Source: an uncultured bacterium (GTDB lineage: Bacteria; Patescibacteriota; Microgenomatia; UBA1400; UBA12108). Taken from it: a DNA stretch of 44,478 bases. Position numbers and translations under genes: made by a program. This document shows positions 13,859 to 16,390 of this stretch, one piece after another. The DNA lies in NCBI GenBank assembly GCA_903945195.1, contig CAJAUT010000017.1:1-44478 (forward strand). Reading direction: 5' to 3'. Position 1 is the first letter of the stretch. Each line of letters opens with the position of its first letter. The notes under the pieces are model-generated. The model was given only the letters and a program-made list of their open reading frames with translations. It did no database searches and was not told the DNA's origin.

Positions 13859-14185
13859 ATGCCAAAAGCACAAGGTCCATTCTTAAGAAAAGCTGATTAC
13901 GAAGAAATTCGCAGGGTTGTGAGAGAAGAATTACAGCAATACGTTACTAAGGACGAGATGTCTAAGCTAAATCAGAGCGTTGCATTCCTGCCTACCAAAG
14001 ATGACTACTACAATAGTATGGACAAGATGATGATGGAGCTAAAAGTAATCAGAGAAGAATTTGCTTCTCATCTGAATAGACATCAAGAAAATGAGGTGGC
14101 TATTAAAAACCTAACTCACAAAGTCAAAAATCTATATAAAGTATTTATTATTGATGAACCAGCTGACGTAGTCTCTAGCTACTAG
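13859..14185 (+). CDS. Small coiled-coil hypothetical protein
   Basis: The 108-residue product is mostly helical. Residues 10-32 (DYEEIRRVVREELQQYVTK) and 55-95 (MDKMMMELKVIREEFASHLN and onward) have heptad-like spacing and suggest a trimeric or dimeric coiled coil. No catalytic motif or membrane segment was seen. Its end overlaps the convergent methyltransferase gene by 4 nt. Function unknown. Confidence 0.6.
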   Translation: MPKAQGPFLRKADYEEIRRVVREELQQYVTKDEMSKLNQSVAFLPTKDDYYNSMDKMMMELKVIREEFASHLNRHQENEVAIKNLTHKVKNLYKVFIIDEPADVVSSY

Positions 14186-14853
14186 CTAGCCACGCACACC
14201 AAATTCTGCCCAGTCACTACACTAGCTTTTTTACCATCTCTATCAGCAAAAAACATCTCCTCCACCGTGAGTCCTGCTTCAGTCATGAGGTCCGTCAAAG
14301 TTTGCACGTCATATGCCACGCAGTATCTTTTCCATTTGGTGTTGTATGGCACCTCAAAATGATCATCTATTTGATATTGCAAAAACTTTTCTTGCCACAG
14401 ATTCCAAACGGTCAGGTACAAGAACCCGCCCTTTTTCAGATGTTTCCTACACTCTTTAAGTATATAAATTTGCTGCTTTTTCTCTGGGATATGGTGCAGT
14501 ACTGCCACGCAAAAAATAGCATCATATTTGCCCAAATCTACCCAGTGTTTTGGGTCCACGACGTCTCCGTACACAAACTTGTGTTTAGGATACAGCTTTT
14601 GAGCTTCATCTAGTAAAGTTTTCGAAAAATCAGTACCAAGATACTCTACTCCCTCTGGAAGTCCAGATACCAATTTACCATTACCACAGCCTACATCTAG
14701 TACAGATTGATTATTTTTCAGTTTTGAGAGGTATTTATCAGTCACAAGCCAGTTGCTAGACACACCATTCCCATACGTTTTCTGTCTGGTTCTGCTAAAA
14801 TGAGTCCCTATCTCGTCATACATTATTTGGACGGATTTTATTATGTCAGACAT
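14182..14853 (-). CDS. Trm9/ALKBH8-like SAM-dependent tRNA methyltransferase
   Basis: The 223-residue class I methyltransferase has YDEIGTHFSRTRQKTYG at the start, SAM motif VLDVGCGNGK at about 51-60, GTDFSKTLLDEAQ as motif II, and AVLHHIPEKK at 117-126 followed by GGFLYLTVWNLWQ. The FSRTR start, GCGNGK loop, AVLHHI and TVWN are the hallmarks of the Trm9 family, which methylates carboxymethyluridine at tRNA position 34 to give mcm5U. That reaction uses the product of Elp3, and an Elp3 gene lies divergently with overlapping start codons. No Trm112-like activator was seen. AGGAG 9 nt upstream serves as ribosome binding site. The annotation as Trm9-like is by motif; a general methyltransferase cannot be excluded. 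Confidence 0.72.
   Translation of the reverse strand: MSDIIKSVQIMYDEIGTHFSRTRQKTYGNGVSSNWLVTDKYLSKLKNNQSVLDVGCGNGKLVSGLPEGVEYLGTDFSKTLLDEAQKLYPKHKFVYGDVVDPKHWVDLGKYDAIFCVAVLHHIPEKKQQIYILKECRKHLKKGGFLYLTVWNLWQEKFLQYQIDDHFEVPYNTKWKRYCVAYDVQTLTDLMTEAGLTVEEMFFADRDGKKASVVTGQNLVCVAS
14843..14853. promoter_or_regulatory. Overlapping antiparallel start codons of elp3 and the Trm9-like gene
   Basis: ATGTCAGACAT holds an ATG on each strand. Both proteins begin M-S-D-I, read from opposite strands of a near-perfect palindrome. Promoters of each gene must therefore lie within the other gene's coding sequence. Confidence 0.85.
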
Positions 14854-16390
14854 ATTACCACTCCTACTTGAGTATCATACCAAGTTGGACGCCAAATCCC
14901 TATACGCATTCAAGAAGCTTTGCGTGGACAGGTCTGGCAAGGTTCCCCGCGACTCTGACATCCTTGCAGGATACCGCGAGCTTGTGACCGCAGGCAAGAT
15001 CAAACCAGACAATGCATTGCTCAAACTCCTCACTACTCGCTCAGTCCGCACGCTATCTGGTGTCACCCCATTTGCGGTCATGACCAAACCCTATGTCTGC
15101 CCTGGCCTGTGTACTTTTTGTCCGCTCGAACTAGGCATGCCCAAAAGCTATCTTTCAGATGAACCAGCAGCCGCCCGTGCCAAACAAATGGATTTTGATC
15201 CCAAGCTTCAGATACAGTCACGCCTCACCCAGCTAGAAGAGACCGGGCACGACACCGACAAGATCGAGCTCATCGTCATAGGTGGGACCTTTAGCAATTA
15301 CCCAGAGAGTTATAAACGTGAATTTTTTAAAGCCATGATCGATACGATAAATGGAGAGGTTTCAGAGACTTTAGAATCAGCCCAAATCAAAAATGAATCA
15401 GCCACACGCCGCATCGTAGGTATCAGTATAGAAACCAGGCCTGACTGGATAGATGAAAAAGAAGTGAAGCTCCTACGTGAGCTAGGTGTTACCAAGATCC
15501 AGGTAGGAGTCCAAGCTTTTGACGAAACAATCTTGAAAAGGATCAAGAGGGGACACACATTAGATAGAGTAGGGGAGGCGACTAGACTGCTTAAAGATGC
15601 CGGTATCAAAGTCTGTTATCACTTCATGCCAAATCTGCCAGGTAGCAATCCAGAATTAGATAAGCAGATGGCGCACCTGATGTACGAAGATCCTCGTTTC
15701 AAACCAGATTTTGTAAAGATCTATCCAGCTCAAGTAATAGCGGGCACAGAAATGTACAACGAGTGGCAAAGAGGCGAGTTTGTCCCATATTCCGACGAGC
15801 TACTCAAAGACGTGCTTAAAGATTTAAAGAAAATCACCCCTCCATTTGTTCGCATTGACAGGCTAGTTAGAGATATTTCCAAAAAATGGGTAGCTGCCGG
15901 TACCAAAGCTACTAATATGCGCCAGTATATCCATGAGGAGATGGAAAAAGAAGGTTGGACCTGCAAATGTATCCGCTGTCGCGAAGTCAAAGCCAGAGAT
16001 TACACCACCATGCCACATCTATGTGATTTATTTATAGATACTCTAGGCGGTACAGAGCATCTCCTCACTTTCGAGCTAGATGACAAGCTTTATTCTCTCC
16101 TGCGACTGCGACTCCCTGTCTCTTTGACCCCACAATTTGACGAACTAAAAGGTGCTGCCATCATCCGCGAGCTCCATACCTACGGCAAGACCGTGGTACA
16201 TGATGACAAAAACTCTACCAAGACTCAGCACAGGGGTCTAGGCAAGCTCCTGATGGCCAAAGCAGAAGGGATCGCCAAAGATGCTGGGTACAAAAAGATA
16301 GCCGTGATCTCCTCTATCGGCACTCGCGACTACTACCGCAAGCTAGGCTACGAGCGCGAAGGTCTGTACATGACAAAGAAACTGGTATGA
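14843..16390 (+). CDS. elp3: Elp3-family tRNA uridine-34 carboxymethyl-modification enzyme
   Basis: The 515-residue product has a radical-SAM domain with CPGLCTFC (C86, C90, C93) and the Elp3-specific FCPLELGMPKSY, then IELIVIGGTF, ISIETRPDW and IQVGVQAFDE. A C-terminal GNAT acetyltransferase domain carries HRGLGKLLMAKAEGIAKDAG and a final DYYRKLGYEREG. Known role: acetyl-CoA-dependent formation of cm5U at the wobble position of tRNAs. The length is normal for a stand-alone bacterial/archaeal Elp3. Its ATG overlaps the ATG of the opposite-strand Trm9-like gene, and the two could act in sequence. Lysine and glutamate tRNAs with U34 occur at 43480 and 43595. Confidence 0.93.
   Translation: MSDILPLLLEYHTKLDAKSLYAFKKLCVDRSGKVPRDSDILAGYRELVTAGKIKPDNALLKLLTTRSVRTLSGVTPFAVMTKPYVCPGLCTFCPLELGMPKSYLSDEPAAARAKQMDFDPKLQIQSRLTQLEETGHDTDKIELIVIGGTFSNYPESYKREFFKAMIDTINGEVSETLESAQIKNESATRRIVGISIETRPDWIDEKEVKLLRELGVTKIQVGVQAFDETILKRIKRGHTLDRVGEATRLLKDAGIKVCYHFMPNLPGSNPELDKQMAHLMYEDPRFKPDFVKIYPAQVIAGTEMYNEWQRGEFVPYSDELLKDVLKDLKKITPPFVRIDRLVRDISKKWVAAGTKATNMRQYIHEEMEKEGWTCKCIRCREVKARDYTTMPHLCDLFIDTLGGTEHLLTFELDDKLYSLLRLRLPVSLTPQFDELKGAAIIRELHTYGKTVVHDDKNSTKTQHRGLGKLLMAKAEGIAKDAGYKKIAVISSIGTRDYYRKLGYEREGLYMTKKLV

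Follow-up and report, generated by a model that had tools for sequence, protein, structure and literature searches.

Two back-to-back genes, elp3 and a trm9-like methyltransferase gene, probably form a minimal, Trm112-free, two-enzyme bacterial route for the modification of wobble uridine to mcm5U34, and to mcm5s2U34 with the help of MnmA. We would give this reading roughly three chances in four. The pair lies in a window of 44,478 nucleotides, the whole stretch of DNA analysed here, which is one contig of a 1.05 Mb genome that is 97.6% complete (G000). What we observed directly are the gene families, their linkage and co-occurrence, the presence of most of the tRNA-binding residues, and the lack of both MnmG and Trm112. 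An earlier note on this DNA had suggested such a pathway from the pairing of the two genes. That finding is confirmed and is wider than the note stated.

The elp3/methyltransferase locus

The features of the locus, together with genes from other loci that are discussed below, are listed in Table 1. The two genes were described previously as divergent with overlapping start codons, and this was borne out, as both open reading frames were found in place with positions 14843-14853 common to both. The ribosome-binding-site-like motif of the methyltransferase gene (14865-14861 on the minus strand) lies within the elp3 reading frame. The tRNA-Lys and tRNA-Glu genes mentioned in the earlier note are present in the window, but they are about 27 kb from the gene pair and are, therefore, no evidence of linkage to it. 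This argument was dropped.

Table 1. Features of the window and AsnB-like genes at other elp3 loci
Feature	Position	Strand	Basis
Trm9-like SAM-dependent methyltransferase, 223 aa, proposed cm5U34 carboxyl methyltransferase	14182-14853	-	ORF, profile, tree, residues
Elp3, 515 aa: radical SAM domain, linker CxCxxC, acetyltransferase (KAT) domain	14843-16390	+	TIGR01211, 5l7j alignment
Shared start codons of the divergent gene pair, ATGTCAGACAT	14843-14853	strandless	read from sequence
AGGAG, ribosome-binding-site-like, 7 nt before methyltransferase ATG	14861-14865	-	read from sequence
tRNA-Lys(UUU), presumed substrate	43480-43555	+	
tRNA-Glu(UUC), presumed substrate	43595-43669	+	
AsnB-like gene	L144:557-1408	-	
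AsnB-like gene	L145:1242-2033	+	
AsnB-like gene	L146:1925-2365	+	
AsnB-like gene	L156:1139-1933	-	
AsnB-like gene	L163:1310-2110	+	

Other genes surround the pair. A gene for a RhuM-family protein (PF13310, 332 bits) is located at 16398-17405 (+), immediately 3' of elp3. The ORFs at 12885-13820 and 13859-14185 (+), between tRNA-Thr and the methyltransferase gene, gave no Pfam or NCBIfam match. A protein with bacterial Ig-like or glucodextranase-B-like repeats, which is probably surface exposed, is encoded at 11261-11971 (-).

The elp3 call of the earlier note holds, since the gene product passes the Elp3 profile TIGR01211 with 504.1 bits against a cut-off of 350. Its radical SAM and acetyltransferase domains align with the Dehalococcoides Elp3 structure 5l7j (1.7e-117). 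According to this alignment, the radical SAM cysteines C86/C90/C93 (CX3CX2C) and the linker zinc cysteines CKCIRC are kept. The acetyl-CoA site residues K77, K193, E386, and Y441 (Dmc numbering), which are described as key Elp3 residues in the available portion of PMC6367351, are identical at all four positions. Judged by its sequence, the protein is a bona fide Elp3; cm5U34 formation itself is inferred.

The methyltransferase resembles Trm9

The neighbour of elp3 encodes a class I methyltransferase. Its Pfam matches are to general methyltransferase domains only, and no NCBIfam equivalog exceeded its cut-off. The UbiG equivalog reached 39 bits (cut-off 102.95) and the UbiE/MenG models about 25 bits (cut-offs 158-216). 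Matches this general leave room for an ordinary methyltransferase of small molecules or proteins, which would stand beside elp3 for reasons of regulation only and would owe its likeness to Trm9 to the shared class I fold. We consider this improbable, for the reasons that follow here and in the next section.

All four motifs quoted for the methyltransferase in the earlier note were found in its sequence. When it was searched alone against the PDB, the top match was Yarrowia Trm9 (5cm2, 3.1e-11). A profile built from 27 relatives (A1) gave 94.8 bits for 5cm2 and 57.8 for the next chain, and the alignment with 5cm2 extended across the C-terminal RYYH region. This gap of 37 bits counts against an ordinary methyltransferase. 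A BLAST search was also conducted with a presumed yeast Trm9 sequence as the query. The family aligned with it over almost the full length, and proteins that are linked to Elp3 or come from Elp3 genomes outranked nearly all generic relatives. A paralogue from the same genome (L003) was included in the BLAST search and in the trees.

The fold alone does not discriminate. With an AlphaFold model of the methyltransferase (mean pLDDT 94.6), Foldseek ranked 5cm2 first (8.9e-15), but with VIA-align it was tenth, almost level with other class I methyltransferases (Z 20.6 across 171 residues, compared to 22.4 for the top match). Its identity of 27% was the highest among the 50 matches listed. Since VIA-align does not single out Trm9, which is what an ordinary methyltransferase would allow, the fold was dropped as proof of Trm9 identity.

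In the available sections of PMC5372719, R29, H115, R241, Y243, and N271 of yeast Trm9 are reported to be needed for tRNA binding and activity, and the equivalents of R29, H115, R241, and N271 are described as orienting cm5U34. These four correspond to R23, H120, R176, and N217 in the window methyltransferase, and they are kept in 96/96, 86/96, 91/96, and 80/96 of the Elp3-linked bacterial sequences, respectively. Y243 is replaced by C178, and a tyrosine is found here in 28 of the 96. The tryptophan of the TVWN motif (W150) is present in all 96, in contrast to only 1 of 18 generic relatives and none of six E. coli enzymes. Conservation of W150 and of the RY/N residues counts against an ordinary methyltransferase. 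R23 is no discriminator, since 14 of 18 generic enzymes have its equivalent.

A careful tree was built from 52 rows. One group in it, with support of 84/85, joined two archaeal and two fungal Trm9 sequences to the 33 bacterial ones that come from Elp3 loci or from genomes with Elp3 (the Dehalococcoidia-type ones apart). E. coli UbiG, UbiE, CmoM, BioC, and Tam and eight generic enzymes fell outside this group. A quick tree of 124 rows was less clean, as one Elp3-linked subgroup of 39 rows fell towards the generic enzymes. AU tests rejected a union of the window clade with UbiG and UbiE (p-AU 0.023). They did not reject a union with generic methyltransferases (p 0.262), a result that the reading as an ordinary methyltransferase can claim, or one with CmoM (p 0.109). 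A grouping with ubiquinone or menaquinone enzymes, named in the earlier note as an outcome that would refute it, did not appear, and kinship to UbiE or UbiG was rejected on the equivalog scores, the tree position, and the AU test.

CmoM is known from bacteria as a methyltransferase of a wobble carboxyl group and, like the enzyme proposed here, uses SAM to form the ester. Because such an enzyme is known in bacteria and the AU test leaves the union open, a CmoM-like enzyme that converts cmo5U34 to mcmo5U34, and does not act on cm5U34, has to be considered. This seems very improbable, as CmoM is outside the Elp3-linked tree group, the E. coli enzymes have neither the H115 equivalent (0/6) nor the W residue, and the gene is linked to elp3.

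Taken from sequence comparison, kinship to Trm9 is well supported by the profile and the residues and only moderately by the trees. The earlier reading of the gene as Trm9-like survives within these limits, to which must be added that the fold is not discriminating and that mcm5U was not measured. We file the enzyme as Trm9-like and not as a member of a Trm9-Trm112 complex, because neither a Trm112 partner nor an equivalent of Y243 was found.

Linkage to elp3 across genomes

Elp3 is present in 33 of the 53 genomes of the order. In 32 of these, the methyltransferase gene is on the same contig as elp3 and always divergent from it, within 500 bp in 24 genomes and 4.8 kb away at the farthest. The contig of the remaining genome (G020) stops 213 bases past the Elp3 match. 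With 32 of 33 genomes showing the divergent arrangement and the last one cut by a contig end, the pairing is not due to chance. One kinship family, f11 (G026, G015, G034, G042, G037, G040, G050, and G052), has a wider spacing of 0.8-4.8 kb with divergence kept.

The phylum was sampled with 286 genomes, using an E-value of up to 1e-22 as the threshold for the methyltransferase profile. Elp3 was detected in 105 genomes, the methyltransferase in 84, and both in 77. The methyltransferase thus occurs in 77/105 genomes with Elp3 compared to 7/181 without it (Fisher p 3.4e-37). Among the pairs on one contig, 69/70 were divergent and 64 were within 500 bp, while 7 further pairs were on separate contigs. 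At this threshold, 28 of the 105 Elp3 genomes had no methyltransferase, so the partner is not obligatory.

A scan of GTDB contigs with the methyltransferase profile gave 80 loci, 62 of which scored at least 94 bits and 18 less than 86 bits. Elp3 was found within the fetched locus, always divergent, for 42 of the 62 high scorers and for none of the 18 low scorers. The genomes of 17 of the 20 remaining high scorers encode Elp3 at another place, compared to none for the nine low scorers that were tested. The organisms with the pair include many groups of Patescibacteria, as well as Chloroflexota, Myxococcota, Fermentibacteria, Dojkabacteria, and one Ignavibacteriales MAG, with the caveat that single MAG contigs may be misbinned.

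We also looked at the phylum of G344, a genome titled Anaerolineae that carries locus L109. The methyltransferase profile matched in 19 of 101 genomes, and 12 of these 19 loci were fetched. Elp3 was divergently adjacent in 10 of the 12, and no Elp3 was seen at one of them (L178). In G344 itself, elp3 is 4.9 kb from the methyltransferase gene and on the same strand. A 1016-residue open frame in Chloroflexota was considered as a possible Elp3-methyltransferase fusion and rejected, since the frame is open on the strand opposite elp3 and the two genes diverge here as well.

Lack of conserved linkage to elp3 would have refuted the earlier note. Instead, the linkage is strongly conserved in the order and in the phylum sample and recurs in other phyla. 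The co-occurrence, the orientation retained over many phyla, and the presence of Elp3 in the genomes of 17 of the 20 high scorers without an adjacent elp3 all count against an ordinary methyltransferase.

MnmG, MnmA, and Trm112

MnmE and MnmG carry out C5 modification of U34 in most bacteria. MnmG was not found in any of the 53 genomes of the order, in a search whose controls were positive in 9 of 14 genomes, and MnmA was found in 45 of the 53, including G000. These results indicate that C5 modification by MnmEG is missing and that the thiolase has been kept. In the phylum sample, MnmG was detected in 6 of 286 genomes, none of which has Elp3. Six genomes are too few for an exclusion of MnmG and Elp3 across the phylum to be significant.

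Eukaryotic Trm9 requires Trm112. The Trm112 family (PF03966) had no match in G000 at an E-value of 0.01, so no activator of the Trm112 type can be detected, which agrees with the Trm112-free version described in the earlier note. PF03966 was found in 11/53 genomes of the order, and only two of these (G010 and G029) are among the 33 that have Elp3.

Proposed pathway

In the proposed pathway, Elp3 would carboxymethylate U34 at C5 through acetyl-CoA and radical SAM chemistry, producing cm5U. The Trm9-like enzyme would then esterify the carboxylate with SAM, without Trm112, to give mcm5U. In the tRNAs for Lys, Glu, and Gln, MnmA would add the 2-thio group to give mcm5s2U. The other Elongator subunits would not be needed, although their genes were not searched for, and the Elp3/Trm9-like pair would take over the job of MnmE/MnmG. 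There are no tRNA nucleoside data. The substrate and the product, the order in which the steps occur, and the ability to work without an activator are inferred, and the chemistry is borrowed by analogy from the eukaryotic and archaeal systems.

Another possible explanation is that the methyltransferase does act on the tRNA base made by Elp3 but that the product is not mcm5U. The enzyme could methylate another group or another derivative, for instance one with a different C5 side chain, because bacterial Elp3 or a further enzyme supplies a different precursor. The linkage data are equally compatible with this, the in vivo product of bacterial Elp3 is not documented in the portions of the cited literature available to us, and C178 in place of yeast Y243 means that the pocket is not identical. 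Still, we find it unlikely, because the cm5U34-orienting residues are mostly kept in the methyltransferase and all of the checked acetyl-CoA residues are kept in Elp3. We continue to favor mcm5U34 as the product.

An AsnB-like gene at elp3 loci without the methyltransferase

Twenty of the 28 Elp3 loci that lack the methyltransferase were fetched. In 5 of the 20, all from Patescibacteria, elp3 is adjoined by a stand-alone gene of the Asn_synthase type (AsnB-like; Table 1), with PF00733 checked for two of the five. No neighbour common to all of the other 15 loci was seen, and one of these (L155) has a diverged methyltransferase that scored 73 bits. A profile built from three of the AsnB-like genes had matches above 240 bits in 6 of the 286 genomes, three of which had supplied the profile. 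In all six, Elp3 is present, the methyltransferase is absent, and the AsnB-like gene is near elp3, with one gene between them in G073.

The step from cm5U to ncm5U is called unknown in the available portions of PMC6367351 and PMC7694415. An AsnB-like enzyme would combine carboxylate activation with ammonia addition, as this step would need. By inference, the AsnB-like gene is a candidate for the cm5U-to-ncm5U amidation enzyme, and its position is consistent with the neighbour of elp3 being responsible for finishing the cm5U carboxylate. A broader model is possible, to which we give slightly less than even odds. In many bacterial phyla, Elp3 would replace MnmEG and the neighbour of elp3 would finish the cm5U34 carboxyl group. 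This neighbour would mostly be a Trm112-independent Trm9-like enzyme, giving mcm5U, and in a minority a stand-alone ATP enzyme of the asparagine-synthetase type, giving ncm5U.

Comparison to known systems and significance

The eukaryotic pathway, with Elongator (Elp1-6) and Trm9-Trm112 or ALKBH8-TRMT112, likewise combines Elp3 with a Trm9-like enzyme, and most of the tRNA-binding residues are shared. The bacterial version differs in that it consists of two adjacent genes, no Trm112 was found, and thiolation would be the task of MnmA. Archaeal Elp3 and Trm9 homologues (Haloferax, Sulfolobus) also involve Elp3 without Elp1/2/4-6, as far as the available portions of PMC2584109 and PMC5372719 describe them; bacterial Elp1/2/4-6 were not searched for. 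According to the same portion of PMC2584109, elp3 and trm9 are clustered in the archaeon S. solfataricus, and archaeal Trm9 acts with Trm112 as presented in part of PMC7694415 (citing van Tran 2018). In contrast to the archaeal system, the bacterial methyltransferases form their own tree groups and the bacterial genes are divergent. The bacterial MnmE/MnmG/MnmC pathway to xnm5U34 also joins U34 C5 modification to the 2-thio group added by MnmA, but the chemistry of the pair is different and MnmG is missing from 53/53 genomes of the order.

Elp3 of Dehalococcoides mccartyi (DmcElp3, 5l7j) has the same key residues as the window Elp3. At locus L180, a methyltransferase gene (1453-2133, -) is divergent from an elp3 gene (2157-3545, +) whose product is almost the same as the Dehalococcoides Elp3 that was crystallised (it matches 5l7j with 985 bits across 458 residues). 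Hence, the bacterial Elp3 that serves as the structural model appears to have such a neighbour. The L180 methyltransferase is of the same general kind but has a lower score (89 bits), and where it belongs in the tree is uncertain.

According to the portion of PMC5372719 available to us, significant similarity to the Trm112-dependent methyltransferases was not detected for any bacterial gene. The part of PMC7694415 that was available places mcm5U in archaea and eukaryotes and not in bacteria, and likewise does not count mcm5s2U as bacterial. We found no prior report of a bacterial elp3/trm9-like pair in the open-licence literature, which is no proof of absence.

The back-to-back elp3 and trm9-like genes in many uncultivated bacteria suggest that this decoding chemistry exists there in a two-gene form. 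The pair offers a Trm9-like enzyme that is seemingly independent of Trm112, and the alternative neighbour of elp3 makes the question of ncm5U formation directly testable. If the amidation role is correct, the AsnB-like enzyme would be the first ncm5U-forming enzyme to be identified. If the proposed pathway is correct, it would account for U34 modification in Patescibacteria that lack MnmG and would mean that, with Patescibacteria, Chloroflexota, and others, the third domain of life also has the mcm5U decoding chemistry.
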